From Bifidobacteriaceae bacterium (GTDB lineage Bacteria; Actinomycetota; Actinomycetes; Actinomycetales; Bifidobacteriaceae), in NCBI GenBank assembly GCA_022650895.1, contig JALCQC010000001.1, positions 124,001 through 188,000 of the forward strand: a stretch of DNA of 64,000 bases, written 5' to 3'. Shown in pieces: positions 50,231 through 62,127 of the stretch. The translations under genes were made by a program, and so were the position numbers. Within the stretch, counting starts at the first letter, position 1. Each line of letters opens with the position of its first letter. Under the pieces are notes generated by a model. That model made no database searches. It was not told the DNA's origin and worked only from the letters and a program-made list of their open reading frames with translations.

Positions 50231-51055
50231 CTAGATCCGCATCATGGCAGTGACGACGAGGAAGATCGCCGTCATGTGGCAGGCGTATCCGATGACGGTG
50301 GCGCTGTGGAAAATCTCATGGAAGCCGAAGATCTTCGGGCTGGGATCGGGCCATCTGCGCGCGTAGACGATGGCGCCGAGAATGTAGATAAGGCCGCCGC
50401 TTGCAATGAGCCACACGACTGCGGGACCAGCGACGGGGGACACCCAGAAGAGCGGGAGAAAGGCCACGCCGGAGACTCCGAAGATGATGTAGACGACGGT
50501 GTAGAGCCAACGCGGCGCCGACATCCACACAAGATGGATGATGAGTGCGACGGCAGTGGACGACCACAGTGAGATGAGGATGGAGTTGCGCCAAAAGCCA
50601 TCAAGTGCAAAGGCAAGTGGGGTGTAGGTTCCTGCGATCAGCAGAAAGATGTTCATGTGGTCGAGACGGCGCAGCATCGCCGTGGTCTTGGGAGACCAGT
50701 CGCCGAGGTGATAGCACGCGGAATTTCCGAAGAGCACAAGCGAACTCACCATGTAGACGGCACACGCTGCCTTGAGCGCGGTGAAGGGTGCCAAGCAGAT
50801 CAGCACGATCCCGCCGGCAAGTGCCAGCGGAGTGGCAATGGCGTGAATCCAGCCGCGCAGAAGCGGCTTTGGGCGTCCATGGACGTCAAGGCGTACCTTT
50901 TTTCCCGTCGTGGACGTTAGGTTGTGAGAGAGTTCGGAATGCTGTCTCCGATCTTGCGTTGCAGTGTTGAATCTTTGCGCCTGCTGCGTGTCGTGACGAG
51001 CTTGTTCATTTTTTCGAGACTGTGTCATCGTGGAGTTCTGTGCGGTGCGTTCCAT
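50231..51055 (-). CDS. Hemolysin III / PAQR-like membrane protein
   Basis: A 274-residue protein. About 65 polar N-terminal residues precede seven hydrophobic segments of the HlyIII family. Likely metal-binding positions are in NSACYHLGDW, RLDHMNIFLLIAGTYTP and the C-terminal HEIFHSATVIGYACH. The frame opens upstream to 51667, antisense to the kinase gene, but the ATG at 51055 has GGAGG seven to eight bases before it. Despite the family name, cytolytic activity cannot be assumed. A tandem palindromic operator lies just upstream. Confidence 0.88.
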   Translation of the reverse strand: MERTAQNSTMTQSRKNEQARHDTQQAQRFNTATQDRRQHSELSHNLTSTTGKKVRLDVHGRPKPLLRGWIHAIATPLALAGGIVLICLAPFTALKAACAVYMVSSLVLFGNSACYHLGDWSPKTTAMLRRLDHMNIFLLIAGTYTPLAFALDGFWRNSILISLWSSTAVALIIHLVWMSAPRWLYTVVYIIFGVSGVAFLPLFWVSPVAGPAVVWLIASGGLIYILGAIVYARRWPDPSPKIFGFHEIFHSATVIGYACHMTAIFLVVTAMMRI

Positions 51056-51081
51056 GTGAGCCTCCGATCCATGAAAATAAC

Positions 51082-51111
51082 TTACGTTAACGTAACCTAC
51101 GATAGCGTAAG
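51082..51111. promoter_or_regulatory. Tandem palindromic operator between hemolysin III and PdtaS-like genes
   Basis: TTACGTTAACGTAA (51082-51095) is a perfect 14-base palindrome. Directly beside it, CCTACGATAGCGTAAG (51096-51111) is a second, imperfect copy of the same pattern (TTACG-nnn-CGTA). Their centres are 15 bases apart, and the whole block is framed by AACTTACG/CGTAAGTT. It is 27 bases upstream of the hemolysin III start. This looks like a double binding site for a dimeric, TetR-like repressor; no such gene is in the window. Confidence 0.65.
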
Positions 51112-51160
51112 TTCCTGACTTTTTCCTTAGCATATCGACCCACACCCATAGGATAGACAC

Positions 51161-52651
51161 GTGACTGACTTTGCAAAAATTATCGCCGACGCGCCCGGTC
51201 TTAATGCCACCGACCGTGAGTGGCTGCATCACTTGGTTGCGGACTGGCAGGTTATCGCGGATCTCGGCTATGCCGACTTGCTGCTGGCAATACCGGTTTC
51301 GGATGGACAGTTCATCTATGCCGGTCAGTGCAGGCCGTCCACGGTGCTTTCCGTGCGCCCCGACGACCTCGTAGGACATTTGGCGGACGATAAAATTCGT
51401 CCATTGCTCATCAAGGCTATGGGCACCCGGGACGTGGTGCGTTCCGAATCCATTCGTAAGATCGACGACTACACCATCTGCGACGTCGCGACATGCGTCT
51501 GGTACGCGGGTCGTCCGATTGCTGTCGTCATCCGCGAGACGAACCTTTCCACGCGCGCGGCGACAGGCCGGTATGAGTCGGAGAGCATCAAGGCATCCAA
51601 GCGGCTGTTCTCCATGATCTCTCGCAGCGAATTCCCCTACAAGGATTCCGTGCTGAGCCAACGGCACAACGCCCGCGTTCCCGATGGCTTCATCGTTCTC
51701 AGCGCCGACGGTTCAGTGGAATACGCTTCTCCGAATGCCGTTAGCTGCTTCAAACGCATCGGCAATAATTCCGAGATGGAAGGTACAAACCTCATCGAGC
51801 TGGGGGTGGGACTCCTTCACAAGGCGGATCCGGTTCCTGAGCAGCTTCCGCTCGTCCTTTCCGGAAAGGCACCTGTCGACTCCGATATCGAAGCCAGTGG
51901 GGGTGCAATCTCCGTTCGTTCGCTGCCGCTTTCCGATGAGAACGGTCACTGTGGTGCGGTTATCCTGTGCCGCGATGTCACGGAGCTTCGTCGACGGGAT
52001 CAGCAATTGAAAACCAAGGATGCCACGATCGCAGAGATTCACCATCGTGTGAAAAACAATCTTCAGTCGGTCTCGGCACTTCTGCGGCTACAATCGCGCA
52101 GGACGGATGATCCTGAAGTGAAGAAGGCTCTGGGGGAGGCAATGCGCCGCGTCGAGACCATTGCCGTGGTCCATGAGGGACTGAGCCAGACCGCCGACGA
52201 AGTGGTGGATTTCGATTCCGTCATCTCGAACCTGCTGCGCATGAGCGTGGATCTTGCGAGTATCGACGGTCAGCACATCGGCATCTCTTATATGGGCAGT
52301 TTCGGAATGATGCCCGCTCAAGATGCGACGCCGTTGTCTCTGGTTCTCACCGAACTTGTGACGAATGCGGTGGAGCATGGCTTTGAGGGCATGACGGAGG
52401 GGCATATCGTCATCTCGGTGGGGCGTGGGGGAAACAACCTCAACGTCGTGGTTGAAGATGACGGACGTGGTCTCGACGACGACCCGAAGCATGCTCAGGC
52501 CAGGACCCACGGAACCGGCTTGGGGACGCAGATCATCAACACCTTTGTACAATCGGATTTCGGCGGGACTGTGCGCTGGGAGCCGCGCCGGGAGGGTGGA
52601 ACGCGTGTGGTGCTCAATATCAAGCTACGCGCCGCACAGGCTGAAAACTGA
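51161..52651 (+). CDS. PdtaS-type sensor histidine kinase
   Basis: A soluble 496-residue kinase. An N-terminal GAF-like domain (about 1-145) is followed by a PAS domain (about 170-280), a HisKA_2 dimerisation domain with EIHHRVKNNLQSV (acceptor His294), and HATPase_c with LTELVTNAVEHGF, VVEDDGRGL and GTGLGTQI. This matches actinobacterial PdtaS, which phosphorylates the ANTAR antiterminator PdtaR. No response regulator or ANTAR gene is adjacent. The GTG start has no ribosome-binding site; TAGGAT (51149-51154) ends six bases before it, suggesting a leaderless mRNA. It is divergent from hemolysin III. Confidence 0.9.
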   Translation: MTDFAKIIADAPGLNATDREWLHHLVADWQVIADLGYADLLLAIPVSDGQFIYAGQCRPSTVLSVRPDDLVGHLADDKIRPLLIKAMGTRDVVRSESIRKIDDYTICDVATCVWYAGRPIAVVIRETNLSTRAATGRYESESIKASKRLFSMISRSEFPYKDSVLSQRHNARVPDGFIVLSADGSVEYASPNAVSCFKRIGNNSEMEGTNLIELGVGLLHKADPVPEQLPLVLSGKAPVDSDIEASGGAISVRSLPLSDENGHCGAVILCRDVTELRRRDQQLKTKDATIAEIHHRVKNNLQSVSALLRLQSRRTDDPEVKKALGEAMRRVETIAVVHEGLSQTADEVVDFDSVISNLLRMSVDLASIDGQHIGISYMGSFGMMPAQDATPLSLVLTELVTNAVEHGFEGMTEGHIVISVGRGGNNLNVVVEDDGRGLDDDPKHAQARTHGTGLGTQIINTFVQSDFGGTVRWEPRREGGTRVVLNIKLRAAQAEN

Positions 52652-52827: not shown

Positions 52828-53109
52828 TCAGGCATTCATTTGCATTGCGGCTGAAGAACGGCGGGCACGCATCGCACGGCGCTTGAGCGCACGACGCTCG
52901 TCCTCGCTCAATCCACCCCATACGCCAGAATCCTGGTTGGTATCCAGCGCCCACTTCAGGCAGGCGTCAATCACCTTGCAGGTGCGGCATACGGCCTTTG
53001 CCTCTTCGATTTGCTGAAGGGCTGTTCCAGTGTTTCCCACTGGGAAGAACAGCTCAGGATCCTTGTCGCGACAGGCGGCTTCAGCGCGCCAATCATAAGC
53101 ATTGCTCAC
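52828..53109 (-). CDS. WhiB-family iron-sulfur regulator (WhiB1-like)
   Basis: A 93-residue Wbl protein that binds a 4Fe-4S cluster through Cys13, Cys41, Cys44 and Cys50 (AACRDKD; AVCRTCKVIDAC). The GVWGG turn (62-66) and a basic C-terminal tail (RRALKRRAMRARRSS) complete the fold. Known relatives bind sigma-A region 4 and sense nitric oxide or oxygen. The start is GTG with GAGG upstream. It lies 42 bases downstream of the EccC-like ATPase gene on the same strand and may share its transcript. Confidence 0.95.
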   Translation of the reverse strand: MSNAYDWRAEAACRDKDPELFFPVGNTGTALQQIEEAKAVCRTCKVIDACLKWALDTNQDSGVWGGLSEDERRALKRRAMRARRSSAAMQMNA

Positions 53110-53151: not shown

Positions 53152-55170
53152 TTACTGAGATAACCATGCCTTCGACATTTTTTCAAGAGCGTTTTCCGCT
53201 GAGATGGGGAAACACTGAATATTTCGTGCTGTGGAGGCAGTTACTAGGACACCTCGTCCGGTAATATCGAAATCTTGCGCGTTCCATTCCTTTAAAAGTC
53301 CCGCGGGGATGCCGTTGAGTACATCTGCCGTGGCGTCTCCACTGGGGAAGATGAGACGCGTGGAACAGTGTTCGGGATAGCGCAGATAGCGTGCGGATGT
53401 CAGAGAGAAAATCAGTCTGCAGTCTCTATTCTGGACGGCCTGCATGAATTCCTTGGCAAGCGGAAGCTGCGACAGGGGATCGAGGAGACTATCCGCGTCG
53501 TCGACGATCCACACGCGGTAGGGGCTTCGGTCATGAGGTCCATGGTGGGATGCGTGAAAAGGTGCACGACGAGGCCCATCGCGTTCATCATGGGAATCGT
53601 ATTGGGAGAGAATCCCTTCCGGCGAGTGAACGTCTGTCATTTTGTTTTCAACTGCATCGTCGACAAAGCCTTGCGCAGTGTGCGCCGTCCATCGGACACG
53701 GCAGGAAGGTGCTTTTCGCAGCTGTATGGCCATGTTCTGTAGCACTGTCGTTTTCCCGCGTCCGGAAGCTCCGATAACCGCGAGATTTCCCTGTGAGAGG
53801 TCGAGAGTGCAGAGGTGCGTCAGCACGCCGTCGTCGATGACTCCGAGCGTCGGCTTCGTGTCGGAGGAGACGGGAGCGTCCGCCAGCTGCGACATCGAAG
53901 GTGCAAGAACGCTCGGTAATGGCGGAGAGAACAGAGGCTGTGCTGATTCGTTCCCGCAAAAACGCTGCGCTTGCAAGCACATGTGGACGATCTCTTCCTC
54001 GTCCTTGAGAACGCTGGAGCGAAATATCCGGAGGGATTCCCCATCGTTGAGTGCGGCGACGCCAGGGGTGCCAGCTGCGAACGCGCTTGCTATGGCGCTT
54101 CCAACCATCTCGGTGGACTGATAACGGTCTCGGACGCGCAGACTGATGTTGAGATTGATGTTCGCCTTCATATCCGCACTGACCTGTCCTGACGGATTCT
54201 GCGTCGCCAGGATCAGGTTCATTCCTAGGGAGCGTCCCTGTGCTGCGATCTTCACGAGATGTTCCGCATAGTCGGGCAGCGCATACCGCAGGGCATGAAA
54301 CTCGTCGACAACCACGACGATGCGCGGAGGAGGAGAGGGGAGGGCGTCGATTTCACCCACACCGGCGTCGGCGATCAGCTTCTCCCGGCGAACGAGTTCG
54401 AGTTCGATGGCCCGCAGAGCCCTGACGGCGTGGGAAAGATTGAGATCCGAGACGAAGCCCACGACGTGTGGAAGCTTCTGTATCTTTCGGAAGGTCGATC
54501 CCCCTTTGAAATCCAAAAAGATGAAATTGAGTGCAGACGGCGGCAGACTCAGTGCCAAGGCGGCGCACCATGCCTGGAGGAACATCGATTTTCCAGAGCC
54601 TGTGGTCCCGGCGATGAGGGCGTGTGGCCCCTGTGAAACGATGTTGAGAAACAATGCCTTTGGTGGAGGCCCGCTCAGGCCGATGGTCACGGTGAAGGAA
54701 TGGCGTGTCCGATTCCAGTTGCGGACCACGCTTTTCCACGAGAAGGAGAAAAAGCTTGATGAATTCTCCTGCATGGAGAGGAGCCGAGTCAACGAACTGG
54801 TGGGCAACGAGGGAATCGCGTTTCCCTCTTTCTGCGGATCACCAGGGCAGGGAGAATATGTGGAGGAGAGTGTTCCCGCTGCCTGTTGCTGCAGAGAAGT
54901 GGGATCTGTCCGTGAGGAAGCGTCAGAGGCGGCACGTGCACGACGCTCTTCCCGGGATGATGCGAGGGAGCTTGCCGCAGAGGTGGCACACATCAGGACG
55001 CCGGGGACGACCATGGCTGCAAAGAGCCAGTTCTTCTGTGTGATGGCGACGACCGCCATCACGCCCTGCGCCAACACAGGGCAGAGTGCCGTCGCTGTGC
55101 GCCAAGGGAACGCGGCGCGATTTTTCGTCGGATCGCGTCGGCGTCTGGGCTCCCGAGTGGTGAAGTGCAT
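53152..55170 (-). CDS. EccC/EssC-like FtsK/SpoIIIE ATPase
   Basis: A 672-residue membrane-anchored ATPase. Two close hydrophobic segments (about 27-44 and 48-66) precede a first FtsK/SpoIIIE domain: TVTIGLSGPPPKALFLNI, Walker A GTTGSGKS (188-195), LDFKGGSTF (219-227), Walker B VVVVDE (285-290), ATQNPSGQV. A second domain has GASGRGKT (467-474) and WIVDDAD (554-560). The motif set matches EccC/EssC motor proteins of type VII secretion, but they usually have three ATPase domains, and no WXG100, EccB, EccD or MycP genes are nearby. It is too short and too unlike FtsK (no gamma domain) for chromosome translocation. Role unknown. Confidence 0.85.
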   Translation of the reverse strand: MHFTTREPRRRRDPTKNRAAFPWRTATALCPVLAQGVMAVVAITQKNWLFAAMVVPGVLMCATSAASSLASSREERRARAASDASSRTDPTSLQQQAAGTLSSTYSPCPGDPQKEGNAIPSLPTSSLTRLLSMQENSSSFFSFSWKSVVRNWNRTRHSFTVTIGLSGPPPKALFLNIVSQGPHALIAGTTGSGKSMFLQAWCAALALSLPPSALNFIFLDFKGGSTFRKIQKLPHVVGFVSDLNLSHAVRALRAIELELVRREKLIADAGVGEIDALPSPPPRIVVVVDEFHALRYALPDYAEHLVKIAAQGRSLGMNLILATQNPSGQVSADMKANINLNISLRVRDRYQSTEMVGSAIASAFAAGTPGVAALNDGESLRIFRSSVLKDEEEIVHMCLQAQRFCGNESAQPLFSPPLPSVLAPSMSQLADAPVSSDTKPTLGVIDDGVLTHLCTLDLSQGNLAVIGASGRGKTTVLQNMAIQLRKAPSCRVRWTAHTAQGFVDDAVENKMTDVHSPEGILSQYDSHDERDGPRRAPFHASHHGPHDRSPYRVWIVDDADSLLDPLSQLPLAKEFMQAVQNRDCRLIFSLTSARYLRYPEHCSTRLIFPSGDATADVLNGIPAGLLKEWNAQDFDITGRGVLVTASTARNIQCFPISAENALEKMSKAWLSQ

Positions 55171-55273: not shown

Positions 55274-56677
55274 CTACTCCAGTCCTCCCACCGTTCCCTT
55301 CGCGTGCGTTCCCTCCGCGATCTGAGAGAACAGGGAGAGGGTTTTCTCGTCGTTCAGCTTTACGGTAGAGCCAATTCCAGAAGACGGATAGTAATTCACA
55401 TCGGTGAAGTAGGGAGAGCCGGTGATTCCGTCGCTACCTGTCGCGTCTTTGAAGGCGAGAGCCATCTTTATCAAGGAGAAGGGTGTGGCGTCTTCGTCGA
55501 CCTTGATGGCGGAGAGTCCGGTACTCACCAATTTGGTCGCCTTGGAGTAGTTGAGCAGAATCTCTTTGCTTGCCGCTTTTTTCGCGACGGCCTGGATGAC
55601 CTGACGCTGACGTTTCGCGCGTCCGATATCACCCGTGGGATCAGAATAACGCATGCGGGAGAAGGCCAAGGCCGTCGTCCCGTCCGCGTTATGGCACCCG
55701 GCGGTCCACTTCAGGCCGGAATAGGCGTCATTCACGGTTTGGTCGTAGCAGAGGTTCACTCCACCTACTGCGTCGACCACGTCTTTGACACCCGAGAAAC
55801 CCACCCGGACAAGATGATCGACTTTGAGTCCACTGATCTGCTCCACCTGTGCCGTGAGCTTCTTCCATCCGTACACTTCAGCGACGGCATTGATCTTCAT
55901 GTCCGTGCCATCGACGGTCACGTAGGTGTCGCGAGGAATTGAAATGAGCGCACTGCGCCCCGACTTCGGCTTCACCAAAAGCATGATGGAATCGGTGCGC
56001 TCGCCGTCAACAGAGCCGACCTTGCCCGTTCCCGCGGTTCCGTCGCGGACGTCGGAGCCAGTGATGAGCCAAGTCTGGGAGGAGTCGTCGGCCGCATCCG
56101 TCAGGCCGTTGAAGTGCTGCAGCTGTCCGTTCACCCAGAAATATGCCATTCCCGCAAGAATCAGAGCGATGGCAATAAGACCGAGAAGAATGCCTGCGAC
56201 AATGCGACCAGGACGATGTCTCTTCGTCATGCTGGCACCGCCATTGTGAGGGCCCCGTCCTCCACCGGAATAGTTCCCGGAGTGCCCGGAGCCCCCCATT
56301 CGCGAACCTCTAGTGGCCGATCTGCCATGTGCCGGTGAGGAATCATCCTGTGAGAAAGAACGGTTGGAGGCAGGAGCGTAGGAGACGGGGGTCTGTCGGT
56401 AATTCTGCGCGTTGGGGGCAGGAAGTGTTCGGCTTGACCCTCCCGCTCTGCGCGGTTCGCGAGCGAACGTCTCCTGCTGCTTGCCTTTCACCGGTGTCTG
56501 CTCATGATTCCGCGGCATTGCTGGCTTTCCGCTTGCCTCTGAACCAGAGGGAGTGAAGCTGGGAGGTTGGGAAATGGCAGTATCGGGGGACTGACCTGCG
56601 CGCTTGCGCGAGGCCGCAGGAATGAAACTCGGTGGTGCAACCGAATCGTCTGGTGTTGACTGGGAATCTAGCGCCAT
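55274..56677 (-). CDS. LytR-CpsA-Psr (LCP) family protein
   Basis: A 467-residue protein of the family that attaches wall polymers (teichoic acid-like glycans, arabinogalactan, capsule) to peptidoglycan. A 155-residue Ser/Pro/Gly-rich cytoplasmic region precedes one membrane helix (about 158-181). The LCP domain follows with GERTDSIMLL, ALISIPRDTYV, INAVAEVYG, GGVNLCYDQ and AFSRMRYSDPTGDIGRAKRQ, which include the conserved Arg and Asp residues for polyprenyl-phosphate and metal binding. AAGGGG lies five bases before the ATG. It is 82 bases downstream of a second LCP gene on the same strand. Confidence 0.93.
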   Translation of the reverse strand: MALDSQSTPDDSVAPPSFIPAASRKRAGQSPDTAISQPPSFTPSGSEASGKPAMPRNHEQTPVKGKQQETFAREPRRAGGSSRTLPAPNAQNYRQTPVSYAPASNRSFSQDDSSPAHGRSATRGSRMGGSGHSGNYSGGGRGPHNGGASMTKRHRPGRIVAGILLGLIAIALILAGMAYFWVNGQLQHFNGLTDAADDSSQTWLITGSDVRDGTAGTGKVGSVDGERTDSIMLLVKPKSGRSALISIPRDTYVTVDGTDMKINAVAEVYGWKKLTAQVEQISGLKVDHLVRVGFSGVKDVVDAVGGVNLCYDQTVNDAYSGLKWTAGCHNADGTTALAFSRMRYSDPTGDIGRAKRQRQVIQAVAKKAASKEILLNYSKATKLVSTGLSAIKVDEDATPFSLIKMALAFKDATGSDGITGSPYFTDVNYYPSSGIGSTVKLNDEKTLSLFSQIAEGTHAKGTVGGLE

Positions 56678-56759: not shown

Positions 56760-58265
56760 CTAATTCTGCGCAGTAACAGCACACACAGTGGCGGAGAGAT
56801 ACTGATCGGCGTACCCCATCGCGTAGCCGGTGTCGGGGTCGGTGATGACGCCCGTTTCGGGGTCTACGATGCCGCCGGTCTTGGGGTCGATGAGTTGACC
56901 GTTGGAATCGGTGTAAAGACCCGTCTTAGAGTCGACCTTTGTGCTGCTGGATCCTGAGCTCGAGTCAGAGTCAGAATCCGAACTGGAAGAGGGACTGGAT
57001 GAATTCGAGTCCTCTGTCGTAGCGTTGGAGGAGGTTGACGAATCGGTGTCGCTCGAGGTGCTGCTCGAGTCCGAGGAACCATTACTTGACGTGGAATCCG
57101 AGGAGGAACCCGATGACGTCGAACTTGAGCTCGTTGTTTTGCTGATGGGCTCGTTGTTTTTCATCTTTTTCCACAGCTCACTGGCGCCGCTGGCCCACTG
57201 CACCCGGTTGAGATCGCCCGGATATGCCTCGGTGGGAACTGTCCTGGAGTAGAGGTGTGAGGTGCTGAAGTTGCTCAGGCTGCCAGCGAGACCTGCCAAG
57301 GTACTCAGATCCGCCAAGGTTTCGCTCATCTGCAGAGCGCTGATGCCTGTGTGCACCAACTGGTAGAGCTGGTCGGAATTGGTGAGGAGGTTCTTTGAAA
57401 GTACTTGGGAGATCACCGCTTTGATGAGGTATTGCTGACGTACTGTCCTCATGATGTCGGAGCCATCGCCCATACCGTGCCTCAGCCGCGCATATTGGGT
57501 CGCCTTAGTGCCATCCAGATGCTGAAGGCCCTTGGAAAGCTTGAGACCGGTATAGGAATCGCTGACATCCTGCGGAATGCAGAGGTCGACGCCACCGATG
57601 ACGTCGATCATCTTTTTGAGTCCTTGGAAGTCGGCGACGATGAACAGAGAGAGATCGATTCCGGTGAGATCCGCCAGTGCGGTGGTGGTGCAGCTCGCCG
57701 CGGAGGCGACGTCCCCGCCGTATTGGTAGGCGGCGGCGAAGATGGAATTGAACATGACGTTGCTGCGTGCCGCCATCGTCCCCTTTGAAGTGGTGCATGC
57801 TGGCTGGTCGACAATGGAATCTCGCGGAATTGACACGAGATTGATGTACGAACGATCGGCGGCGATCTGGACGATCATGGTGGTGTCGGCGTTGTGTTCG
57901 CCCTCCAAGGAACCGCCTATGGAGGAGTTTCCTGCACCATCGCGGGTATCCTGCCCAAGCAGCACGATATTGACGGGTTTTCCGCTGTTGGGATCGGTGA
58001 TGGCTTCCTTTTCGTCGGTGGAGGTTCCGGTCACGTAGTTTTTCACACCGGCGCTTTTCACCGTATTGGCGATATCGAGGTAGGTCGCCGCCGCAAAGGT
58101 TCCCACAAAACCAAGAAGAGCAATGACGACACTGACGATGATGGTGCGGACGCGGTGTGTTTTGGCAAATTCCACGGCATGAAGAGGCTCGTTTGATGGC
58201 GTGTGCGCAAGATTCGGAAGCGCCTTATCCTTCGCCCTCTTCGGGCTGTGAGCGGGAGATGCCAT
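56760..58265 (-). CDS. LytR-CpsA-Psr (LCP) protein with Ser-rich linker and DP-TG repeats
   Basis: Second wall-polymer ligase of 501 residues. One membrane helix lies at about 40-62. The LCP domain has NIVLLGQDTRDG, SIPRDSIVDQ, IGGVDLCIPQD and QYARLRHGMGDGSDIMRTVRQQ. From about 376 to 441 the chain is almost pure Ser/Asp/Thr, followed by a 60-residue tail with short repeats of DPxTG type and a single Cys near the end. Such tails may contact the wall. The frame opens at 58361, but the ATG at 58265 has AGAAGGGA seven bases before it. It probably forms an operon with the downstream LCP gene. Confidence 0.92.
   Translation of the reverse strand: MASPAHSPKRAKDKALPNLAHTPSNEPLHAVEFAKTHRVRTIIVSVVIALLGFVGTFAAATYLDIANTVKSAGVKNYVTGTSTDEKEAITDPNSGKPVNIVLLGQDTRDGAGNSSIGGSLEGEHNADTTMIVQIAADRSYINLVSIPRDSIVDQPACTTSKGTMAARSNVMFNSIFAAAYQYGGDVASAASCTTTALADLTGIDLSLFIVADFQGLKKMIDVIGGVDLCIPQDVSDSYTGLKLSKGLQHLDGTKATQYARLRHGMGDGSDIMRTVRQQYLIKAVISQVLSKNLLTNSDQLYQLVHTGISALQMSETLADLSTLAGLAGSLSNFSTSHLYSRTVPTEAYPGDLNRVQWASGASELWKKMKNNEPISKTTSSSSTSSGSSSDSTSSNGSSDSSSTSSDTDSSTSSNATTEDSNSSSPSSSSDSDSDSSSGSSSTKVDSKTGLYTDSNGQLIDPKTGGIVDPETGVITDPDTGYAMGYADQYLSATVCAVTAQN
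56817..56933 (-). repeat. Five short protein repeats in the LCP tail
   Basis: In the tail of the preceding LCP protein (residues 445-483) five 7-8 residue units follow one another: DSKTGLYT, DSNGQLI, DPKTGGIV, DPETGVIT, DPDTGYAM. The underlying DNA shows a matching roughly 24-base period on the minus strand. Confidence 0.85.
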
Positions 58266-58453
58266 CAACTGGTCCCTTCTGTTTAAGGATTCCTGAATGA
58301 AATATGAAACAACCGTATTCCTGAATTCTGAATGGAAGTATATCCCACGGTCATGAAACAAGCAGATTGCAGTGACTGCGCTCTGATTTTTCTATACTTT
58401 TCCTCTTCTTTACCATGCCGATCCGGTAAAAATGGGCAACGACCCGGGGGAAT

Positions 58454-58482: not shown

Positions 58483-58559
58483 TTGAAGGAAGTCAGGAAG
58501 AAAATTCGCATTGTATTTGCATTTTCAGTGCATCGGTGCGGATTGGATTCGGAGAAAGA

Positions 58560-58865
58560 ATGTTGAATTTATTCGATGAATCCTCACCTCGTGGCATTGA
58601 CGATGACGCCGATACTGGTGTGTGGGGTTTATTCGGTGCCCATGACGATGTGTCGTGGCATCTCAAGGCATTGTGTGCCCAAACTGATCCCGACGCGTTC
58701 TTTCCTGAAAAAGGCGGTTCGACGCGCGATGCGAAGAGTATCTGCGCGCACTGTGAGGTTCGCGAGCAATGTTTGAAATGGGCCATAGAGAACGATGAGC
58801 GGTTCGGAATCTGGGGCGGTATGAGCGAGCGCGAGCGCAGAAAATATAAAAAGAATCACGTCTGA
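58560..58865 (+). CDS. WhiB-family iron-sulfur regulator (WhiB2/WhmD-like)
   Basis: A 101-residue Wbl protein with cluster ligands Cys39, Cys62, Cys65 and Cys71 (ALCAQTD; ICAHCEVREQC) and the turn GIWGG (83-87). About 30 residues precede the core. The frame starts with GTG at 58536, but the ATG at 58560 has GGAGAAAG just before it. WhiB2/WhmD relatives are linked to septation, and in actinobacteria they typically sit near a glycosyltransferase gene and a metallopeptidase-like gene, as here. Confidence 0.92.
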   Translation: MLNLFDESSPRGIDDDADTGVWGLFGAHDDVSWHLKALCAQTDPDAFFPEKGGSTRDAKSICAHCEVREQCLKWAIENDERFGIWGGMSERERRKYKKNHV

Positions 58866-58956: not shown

Positions 58957-61900
58957 GTGAATTCTGCGAACGAGAAGAACTTTCCTCTCCTGACGTGCGT
59001 GCGCGAGGCACTGGAATCACCACTGCCTCAAACTCCACGTAGAGTTGATCCGACCGTCGCCGCCGTGATAACGGTGGAAGACGATCTCACCTATTTTCCC
59101 CAGACGTTCAGTGCGGTTTTAAAGCAGTCAGTGCTGCCGGCCGTTCTCATCGTCGCGGATGTGGGAGCCCATGAGGAACAGGTTCGTCGGTTCACCCTCT
59201 CCATTCCTGGCGTGCCACGCAAAGACGGTCTCTCCAGTTCTCAGAGCATGGAGATACAAATCGTTCCCGCTCTGGGAGCCGTCAGTTTCGGAGACGCCGT
59301 GTCCAAAGGCGTTGCCGCTGGGTCCCTTCGCTCGACTACCGCGTATCTCTGGCTTTTCCACGATGACTCACGTCCCCTTGAGGCATCGGCATTGGAGACT
59401 TTGCTCGAAACCGATCGCAACTCTCCCGGAGCCCGAGTCGTCGGAACAAAGCAGGTGGATTGGGAGGCGCAGAGTCTCCACGACGTGGGGTATTTCCTGT
59501 CAAAGAACCGGCGTCGCGCCTCGCTCGTCGTCGACGGTGAGGAGGATCAGGACCAATACGACGATCGAGAAGACGTCTATGGCGTCAGCCTCGCGGGTGC
59601 GCTGGTCTCGCTGCAGACATGGATGAACCTTTCGGGAACGGATCCCTGGTACGGGACGTTTGGCGAGTCCACCGATTTCGGAAGGCGTGTCTACCTATCG
59701 GGAGGGCGTGTCATCGTCGACCCGAAGGTGGTGGTCGCGCATAGGCGCGCACGTTTCTGCGGAGTCCGCGATATTCAGGATGGGACAGCGTTGGAGGAGG
59801 GGGAAACCCCGAAAAACTCGTATGCGACGGTGGTGGCGTCCCGTGACCGTTTCGCCGCATCGGAACTCGCCGTGTGGAAGCAACCCTTCTCCTGGCTATG
59901 GAGCGTTGTGCGCGCGATCGGAGTTTTCGTCGCCTATCTCTTTGCAAAGAAGCCTTATGAAGCCGTCTGCGAACTCGTGGCACCGTGGAGGGGACTGATC
60001 CATTTCCCCCAGCTCGTCGCGGCGCGCTCGCGGCTGCGGTCGTTGCCGACGTCCGAACGCGACAGATTCGCCTCACTCACCGTCTCCACGGCGCGCATGC
60101 GTGATTGGAAGCAGCGCATCGAGGCCCATTCCGCCGAGGGCACCGCCGTTCTTCTCAGCCCCCTTGCCCAGCAGCACCTTCGGACGCTGGCGCAGCGGAG
60201 AAGACGGTGGGTCGCTCTTCTCGTACTGGCGGGACTTGCCCTCGGAGTCTCGATGTATTGGTCGCTTCTCGGTGGGATATTCTCCGGATCCTCCATCTAT
60301 TCGGCGCTCCTCGCCCCGACCGCGGCGAGCCTTTCCACCGTCGCCAAGAGCGCCACCACCATGTGGAGTTTCTCCTATCAATTGGGCGCTCCCGCGGCAC
60401 CCATGCCCTTCAACCTCGTTCTTCTCGTCCTTTCCGCCATCACGGGTGGGCATTTGGCAACCGGAATCGGAATCTTTACCCTTCTCAGCCCTGCGCTGAT
60501 GATGGTGACGTTCTGGGCGCTCGCCGGTGTTTTCACCCGGTCGAATCCACTGCGATTCGCGATGGCCCTCCTGTGGGGAGTGATTCCGGGGTTCTGCGGA
60601 ATCTACCAGAATGCGCATCTGCCCATGCTGGTCGTGTTCGTCTTTCTTCCACTGAGCTTCTACCTTGTCTTCAGGGCCGTCGGGATGTATGCAGTGGACG
60701 AACCCCGCCGGGCCCGCTCATCCATTCAGGCGTCGGCGATCGCCGGACTGTCGATGAGCTTTGTGGCGCTGAGCGAGCCACAACTCATTCTTCCGTTCTT
60801 CGTGGTCTTCGCCGTATTCCTCATCATGGTGCGGCGTCACCGTGCCATGCTTCTGCTGATGCCGCTGCCCTCCATCATCGTCCTGATGCCGACGTTCTTC
60901 AGCGTTCTTATCCATTTCAATGAGGGGTGGTGGCGCCAGCTCTTCGTCGATTCCACCGTCGTCGATCAGACTTTCCAGGGAAGTCCCGGAAACAGCGCGC
61001 TCTTCACGCGGATCGCGGACATTGTCTCTTCTCAGCTGACCGCTCTTTCAGCGAACGGATCATGGCAGGTCATTGCCGTGGGAGTGCTTCTCATCGTTCT
61101 TGCCGTACTGGTGGCAGCCGGCATCGTCTCGCTTTTCGTTCCGAGCGCGTTGAGGCTGTCGCGCATGGCGTGGATCATTCTGGCTGCCGGCGGCGTGCTT
61201 GGAATGGTGTCGCCGCGCATCGCCATCGGGCTCGATTCCAACGTTCCCGTCGCGGCCTCCGTACTTCCTGCCATTGCGTTCATGGCGGTGGGTCTGCTTC
61301 TCGCCGCATGTGCGATGACGGGAAGAGGTAACTCTCACTTCCTCGATGCCACCCGAGGCACAGGCACTGCACATACGAATACGGATACGGGTACGGGCGC
61401 AGATACAACAGATACAACGGTCTCGGGTTCGGAATCGACAGCCCACCTACACACCGGACTGATGGGATTCCTTCACTCTGCACTGTGCGTTGTCGTTCTC
61501 GTTGGCATTGCTGCGGGGATGAGTGTGGGAGCCGCGAACTGGAACGAAAACTCCACTGTCGCGGTCGCCAATGACTCCGCGTTCCCGATCATTGCCGAGG
61601 ACGATCTCGCCTCCCGCGAGGGTGCACGCATCTTTGCGCTTTCCTCCAGTGACGTGGCCTCCGTGAACTACACGGTGATGCGTACCCCCACCGGCGACTT
61701 AGTGGATGCCAATGCCACCACCCAGATACAGGGAATGCTGTCCGACGATCCGCAAGAGGACCAGTTGCAGCAGATTGCAGCACGCTTGCTCGCCTCGAAT
61801 GACGATGAGGCGGTCTCCGATTTGGCGACGCTCGGCTTCGTCGGAATCTATGTGCCGGGATCCGATGTCTCGTCTCGTGCCAACCTTGTGGCCCACATCA

Positions 61901-62127
61901 CCGCAAGCGAGGGTACGGAACAGGTTGTCAACAACGACAAGGGGCTGTACGTCCGTCTGACGACAGTCGGCGAGGCCAGTTCGCAAAGCATCGACATCAC
62001 TGGTGAGAAGGAGTCCTATGGGGATCCTCTGCGCAAACTGTGGATCGCTTTGGTATGCCTCATCGTGGTGATCTATCTCATCGTCGCCATTCCACGTACC
62101 CGGCACCTTGGTCAGGAGGAAGCATGA
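58957..62127 (+). CDS. Large membrane glycosyltransferase (GT2 family)
   Basis: A 1056-residue protein. The N-terminal GT-A domain (about 30-310) resembles family 2 transferases: AAVITVEDDLTYFPQTFSAV at the start, LWLFHDDSRP as the metal-binding DxD-like segment, and FGESTDFGRRVYLSGGRV near the acceptor site. About twelve to fourteen membrane helices follow from about 305 to 870, then an extracytoplasmic stretch and a final helix near 1030. A low-complexity Thr/Asp/Gly segment lies at about 800-825. The GTG start has no ribosome-binding site; TAAAGT ends six bases upstream. It probably builds a wall or lipid-linked glycan; acceptor unknown. The stop overlaps the next gene. Confidence 0.88.
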   Translation: MNSANEKNFPLLTCVREALESPLPQTPRRVDPTVAAVITVEDDLTYFPQTFSAVLKQSVLPAVLIVADVGAHEEQVRRFTLSIPGVPRKDGLSSSQSMEIQIVPALGAVSFGDAVSKGVAAGSLRSTTAYLWLFHDDSRPLEASALETLLETDRNSPGARVVGTKQVDWEAQSLHDVGYFLSKNRRRASLVVDGEEDQDQYDDREDVYGVSLAGALVSLQTWMNLSGTDPWYGTFGESTDFGRRVYLSGGRVIVDPKVVVAHRRARFCGVRDIQDGTALEEGETPKNSYATVVASRDRFAASELAVWKQPFSWLWSVVRAIGVFVAYLFAKKPYEAVCELVAPWRGLIHFPQLVAARSRLRSLPTSERDRFASLTVSTARMRDWKQRIEAHSAEGTAVLLSPLAQQHLRTLAQRRRRWVALLVLAGLALGVSMYWSLLGGIFSGSSIYSALLAPTAASLSTVAKSATTMWSFSYQLGAPAAPMPFNLVLLVLSAITGGHLATGIGIFTLLSPALMMVTFWALAGVFTRSNPLRFAMALLWGVIPGFCGIYQNAHLPMLVVFVFLPLSFYLVFRAVGMYAVDEPRRARSSIQASAIAGLSMSFVALSEPQLILPFFVVFAVFLIMVRRHRAMLLLMPLPSIIVLMPTFFSVLIHFNEGWWRQLFVDSTVVDQTFQGSPGNSALFTRIADIVSSQLTALSANGSWQVIAVGVLLIVLAVLVAAGIVSLFVPSALRLSRMAWIILAAGGVLGMVSPRIAIGLDSNVPVAASVLPAIAFMAVGLLLAACAMTGRGNSHFLDATRGTGTAHTNTDTGTGADTTDTTVSGSESTAHLHTGLMGFLHSALCVVVLVGIAAGMSVGAANWNENSTVAVANDSAFPIIAEDDLASREGARIFALSSSDVASVNYTVMRTPTGDLVDANATTQIQGMLSDDPQEDQLQQIAARLLASNDDEAVSDLATLGFVGIYVPGSDVSSRANLVAHITASEGTEQVVNNDKGLYVRLTTVGEASSQSIDITGEKESYGDPLRKLWIALVCLIVVIYLIVAIPRTRHLGQEEA

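Follow-up and report, generated by a model that had tools for sequence, protein, structure and literature searches.

A short EccC/EssC-type motor in Bifidobacteriaceae and its candidate cargo: a possible dispersed type VII secretion system

The window analysed here is a 64,000-nucleotide stretch from a Bifidobacteriaceae bacterium (GenBank assembly GCA_022650895.1, contig JALCQC010000001.1, positions 124,001 to 188,000 of the forward strand). On its minus strand, at 53152..55170, lies an open frame without stops encoding a 672-residue protein that resembles EccC and EssC, the motors of type VII secretion systems (T7SSs). An earlier note, made from the sequence of the window, had described an orphan motor of this kind with membrane anchors and only two ATPase domains, and had suggested for it either an envelope or septum function or a minimal export system. 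The protein, its possible cargo and their distribution across the family were examined computationally.

Results and discussion

Among NCBIfam models the best matches to the 672-residue open reading frame were EssC (3e-57), EccCa (2e-44) and EccCb (6e-32), with FtsK at 8e-15, and Pfam returned FtsK_SpoIIIE (1e-31). The motor scores under the curated cut-offs of all three ESX equivalog models, which is expected because the protein is shortened. The nearest solved structures by sequence were T. curvata EccC, B. subtilis YukB and mycobacterial EccC5. An AlphaFold model (me6543e062a88; mean pLDDT 75, and >90 across most of the first ATPase domain, D1) consists of two N-terminal membrane helices and two P-loop domains. 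A Foldseek search with this model placed EccC and EssC on top, with T. curvata EccC (4nh0) as the top PDB match at E 9e-29 and FtsK at 5e-17. The two helices (residues 21-44 and 48-82; 54925..55110, minus strand) were assigned from the model together with hydropathy, which gives hydrophobic segments at residues about 25-44 and 47-67, and the hydrophobic pair is seen across an alignment of 21 motor orthologues. By profile, fold and motif the protein is a membrane-anchored EccC/EssC-type FtsK/SpoIIIE ATPase. This bears out the earlier description of an anchored motor with two ATPase domains, and the profiles put it in the EccC/EssC group rather than in a non-secretion clade.

D1 (residues 145-420; 53911..54738, minus strand) was recognised by profile-profile comparison as homologous to D1 of full-length EccC (E 4e-75). 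It pairs the Walker A motif GTTGSGKS (residues 188-195; 54586..54609, minus strand) with the Walker B sequence VVVVDE, and Walker A K194, Walker B D289/E290, T323-Q324 and R345 are unchanged in 21/21 orthologues. Judged by these motifs, D1 is a complete, intact EccC/EssC-type ATPase domain. The second domain (residues 424-655; 53206..53901, minus strand), also of EccC type by profile-profile comparison, is shrunken and pairs GASGRGKT (residues 467-474; 53749..53772, minus strand) with IVDDA. A smaller initial comparison of this domain leaned to D3, and a larger profile-profile test gave E 1e-11 for D2 (mean 17.7 bits) and E 5.6e-10 for D3 (mean 19.5 bits); on these values it may derive from either EccC D2 or D3. 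No FHA match was found on the motor in a Pfam/NCBIfam scan and, relative to an ordinary EccC or EssC, it is without the FHA domain, the D0 region and one ATPase domain.

The genome searched for partners and cargo is an assembly at 88% completeness. It holds no second EccC, the other match being an FtsK-like frame of 986 residues on contig C6. No WXG100 gene lies in the window; the sole match in the whole genome is a core WXG100 gene next to groEL on contig C7 (G000:C7:15758-16048). This position is shared with 14 relatives, and a C-terminal YxxxE is present in every copy. Ten kilobases from the WXG100 gene, a MoxR-DUF58-VWA-VWA-DUF6466 operon ends in two genes of interest: one for a small WxG partner of 93 residues with a WQG motif (G000:C7:25580-25861) and, with the partner just upstream of it, one for a lipase-like alpha/beta-hydrolase of about 490 residues (G000:C7:25858-27327; PGAP1-like, E 1.5e-5). 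The partner resembles EspA_EspE weakly (E 0.003, below cut-off), and the N-terminal domain of the hydrolase is without a Pfam match. Across 20 relatives the hydrolase conserves GHSQGG and, in 19 of them, an N-terminal Y158 (YxxxD/E); a small WxG protein is encoded immediately upstream in most. The operon was considered as an obligatory part of the system and rejected, as it persists in genomes that have lost motor, WXG100 and lipase. As a separate observation, most relatives have a CxC motif in the WxG partner, and 18/20 have a conserved cysteine in the hydrolase (L156-L174), a possible inter-subunit disulfide.

Motor (E 1e-60 or better) and hydrolase (E 1e-20 or better) were then scored in 189 family genomes. 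The motor is present in 150, a degree of conservation that rules out chance, and the hydrolase in 151; by this distribution the motor belongs to the core genes of Bifidobacteriaceae. The hydrolase accompanies the motor in all 150 genomes and is absent from 38 of the 39 motor-less ones, the sole exception (G155) being a 74%-complete assembly. A Fisher test on this co-occurrence ignores relatedness. The largest genus includes 18 genomes without the motor, 17 of them also without the hydrolase. In genera g11 and g13 (five genomes) motor, WXG100 and hydrolase are all gone with the flanks at the three loci intact: groEL, a response regulator, the MoxR operon, an MprF-like gene and the PdtaS gene that neighbours the motor are retained. 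The other motor neighbours described below, whiB and the LCP genes, are kept in g11 and lost in g13. As the five genomes form one clade nested among motor-bearing genomes in the PdtaS tree, a single secondary loss is indicated, and a count of g11 and g13 as independent losses was rejected. In G036, where motor and lipase are lost, a broken WXG100-like remnant with stops lies beside groEL (L210:15377-15565).

A mirror-tree analysis of rate co-variation gave a partial r of 0.52 (p 0.01) for motor and WXG100 and of 0.60 (p 0.0005) for motor and lipase, weakly supporting a link between the motor and its candidate cargo. The same set of genes occurs as a unit in the reduced-genome family members G006, G032 and G011, where WXG100, a second WxG protein, lipase and a full-length EccC lie in one 6-8 kb cluster. 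The second small protein has a WKG motif or similar there, the EccC is 1174-1467 residues long, and a further protein of 150-200 residues is encoded. In a tree of D1 sequences the cluster EccCs are not near neighbours of the short motor, and the clusters therefore show a functional set and not direct ancestry.

Taken together, these comparisons suggest that the motor is probably the membrane ATPase of a pared-down T7SS, dispersed over three loci, which exports WXG100 and the lipase. The earlier suggestion of a minimal export system is thus well supported, the predicted cargo tracking the presence and absence of the motor. The label of orphan is right for the neighbourhood, and no ESX locus with an EccC of its own was found elsewhere in the genome; genome-wide the label fails, as WXG100 and the WxG-partner/lipase pair on another contig track the motor.

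What the sequences themselves show is homology, a domain layout, shared motifs and genes that are kept together, lost together and, in relatives, clustered; the mechanism proposed here goes beyond that. The YxxxD/E tails would be offered to the motor by a WXG100 dimer and by a hairpin of partner and lipase. Once these substrates were bound, ATP hydrolysis by D1 in a presumed hexamer would push folded helical bundles across the membrane, by way of a putative pore. The second ATPase domain may act as a docking or regulatory domain, and the lipase would be active outside the cell. As the family genomes seldom have more than one copy of the hydrolase and no evident immunity gene adjoins it in this genome, its pattern argues for a housekeeping envelope enzyme rather than a polymorphic toxin.

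Several points weigh against export by this motor. EccB (PF05108) gave no match in the genome itself and none in nearly all family genomes, EccE and MycP not being among the proteins searched for; the YukD/EccD ubiquitin-like domain (PF08817) had no match in this or 36 family genomes; and YukC/EssB (PF10140) had no match in this genome and almost none in the rest of the family, with a positive B. subtilis control. On these searches, any pore would have to form without an EccB, EccD/YukD or EssB-type membrane partner. The second ATPase domain is conserved weakly, and its Walker A is gone in the short motors of genus g2 (L071, L072). The co-loss that was followed at each of the three loci amounts to one event, and two control pairs were also positive in the rate co-variation test, which weakens the signal for motor and WXG100 or lipase. 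Secretion by the motor system is itself something that we infer.

Alternative explanations

The motor might be a decaying remnant that no longer exports, WXG100 and lipase having taken other roles. The losses of D0, FHA and one ATPase domain would fit, as would the degenerate second domain with its P-loop gone in g2, but the catalytic residues of D1 are unchanged in the 21 orthologues, the gene is kept in 150/189 family genomes and, where lost, it has gone cleanly together with both cargo loci. Such decay is unlikely.

The genes around the motor raise a different possibility. Directly downstream, after a gap of 42 bp, lies whiB (52828..53109, minus strand; identified by Pfam WhiB, 2e-27, and synteny), which is treated here as a neighbour and not as a part of the system. 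A PdtaS-type histidine kinase gene (51161..52651, plus strand) is convergent with these genes and is a conserved neighbour, and two LytR-CpsA-Psr (LCP) genes lie upstream on the same strand as the motor (55274-56677 and 56760-58361, minus strand). The block LCP-LCP-motor-whiB with convergent PdtaS is maintained in 20 family loci, few whiB or LCP matches being missing. It was from the LCP and whiB neighbours that an envelope or septum function had been proposed, that is, a protein acting with LCP ligases and WhiB and not a secretion motor. The nearly invariant gene order is in its favour; however, g11 lost the motor yet keeps LCP and whiB, the whiB-linked full-length EccCs of Arthrobacter and Rothia have no adjoining LCP, and no co-variation in rate links LCP1 to the motor in the mirror-tree analysis, the co-retention of the motor being with the lipase. 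This proposal of the earlier note was not supported, and we consider it improbable.

It is very improbable that the motor exports WXG100 only, with an independent lipase linked to it indirectly (e.g. through a shared regulator or niche). In its favour, most genomes have the three loci unlinked, the lipase N-terminal domain is without a Pfam match and the partner resembles EspA_EspE only at a sub-threshold level, but lipase, WxG partner, WXG100 and EccC form a single cluster in the reduced-genome relatives, motor and lipase co-occur in 150/150 genomes and a YxxxD/E lies within the lipase N-terminal domain. A DNA translocase of the FtsK/SpoIIIE or conjugation type, with which the motor has the FtsK_SpoIIIE ATPase fold in common, is scarcely credible when EccC/EssC beat FtsK by profile (3e-57 vs 8e-15) and by Foldseek (9e-29 vs 5e-17) and the genome has an FtsK-like frame of its own on contig C6.

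Descent of the motor

A scan of genome contigs with the single protein gave no matches; a profile scan then recovered the same gene in relatives, Bifidobacterium subtile and B. tsurumiense among them. Beyond the family, Arthrobacter, Rothia, Demequina and two more families of the order have a full-length EccC beside or near whiB and PdtaS. In the D1 tree the 23 short motors form one clade (support 100/99), and the shortening therefore most simply happened once. Most likely, on this tree and the domain comparison, the motor arose once, when a full-length EccC lost FHA, D0 and one of its ATPase domains internally. Descent from exactly the Arthrobacter-type whiB-linked EccC was rejected: L187 and L188 are nearest in the D1 tree and Arthrobacter and Rothia fall elsewhere, the deep nodes being weak. 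L188 is itself whiB-linked.

Comparison with known systems

An EccC/EssC with four NTPase domains is described for each of the eight newer subtypes, T7SSc-j, and the core ATPase of T7SSa and T7SSb is the same (PMC11217815). The motor described here has two and therefore differs from each, and the best reading of the sequence comparisons is a dispersed minimal T7SS unlike the published subtypes T7SSa-j.

T7SSd was reported in Actinomycetota, namely Olsenella and Bifidobacterium, by Garrett et al. in 2024 (PMC11217815). Like the present set of genes it is actinobacterial, has an EccC/EssC-type motor with one core WXG100 and has no YukD. T7SSd is, however, a single cluster with an FHA-bearing four-NTPase ATPase, a Ser/Thr kinase TsdD, TsdH and a very large TsdI, whereas the present genes are scattered and their motor is a two-domain protein lacking FHA (TsdD, TsdH and TsdI were not searched for genome-wide). 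Separate full-length EccC systems do stand alongside the short motor in two family genomes, at L191 (G007; 1661 residues with FHA) and L192 (G008; 1498 residues), and that at L191 may be T7SSd.

With T7SSa/ESX-4 of mycobacteria there are in common a motor with two membrane helices and EccC D1, and WXG100 cargo with a YxxxD/E tail; the present system differs in having no EccB/EccD match, a single WXG100 instead of an EsxA/EsxB pair and a short motor. T7SSb of Bacillota (EssC, EsxA; lipase effector TslA, PMC10730906) also has a single core WXG100 and lipase-type cargo with one or more small helical partners. Unlike T7SSb, the present set has no EssB/YukC or YukD match, its motor is without FHA and no immunity gene was noticed beside the lipase; the putative targeting part of the lipase is N-terminal here and C-terminal in TslA. 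The EccCs of Arthrobacter, Rothia and Demequina share the genomic address beside whiB and PdtaS and a homologous D1, but are of 1023-1454 residues with FHA and extra ATPase domains where examined.

It is possible, though distinctly tentative, that these genes constitute a further T7SS subtype belonging to the core genome of most Bifidobacteriaceae. It would have a two-ATPase-domain motor that can do without a dedicated EccB/D/E, EssA/B or ubiquitin-like partner, and genes at three loci. Its main cargo would be no toxin but a conserved housekeeping lipase, encoded in single copy, whose target is the envelope of the cell itself.

Reports of T7SSs in bifidobacteria have been limited to gene clusters in certain species: those of B. 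choerinum and B. dentium (PMC4965825), and T7SSd (PMC11217815). If the present interpretation is right, most bifidobacteria, which are major gut commensals, have a vertically inherited T7SS, and neighbourhood-based surveys would have overlooked it because its genes are unlinked. The motor would be unusually small for a T7SS and would serve as a natural test case for the EccC domains and membrane partners that export truly requires. In B. longum, a WXG100 gene is up 31-fold in stationary phase (PMC9415070), and this induction would be an experimental handle if that gene is an orthologue.

Other genes in the window

Beyond the LCP genes, a second WhiB-like gene lies at 58536-58865 (plus strand), and the opposite-strand frame listed at 58493-58786 (minus strand) is probably spurious. 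At 58957-62127 (plus strand) a protein of 1056 residues is encoded which has no Pfam or NCBIfam match and which, at 33-58% identity, is found beside DUF5719 in family loci. On the other side, an HlyIII/TrhA-like gene at 50231-51667 (minus strand) was called at 478 residues with its domain at 266-465; its start, which makes it overlap the PdtaS gene, has probably been placed too far upstream.
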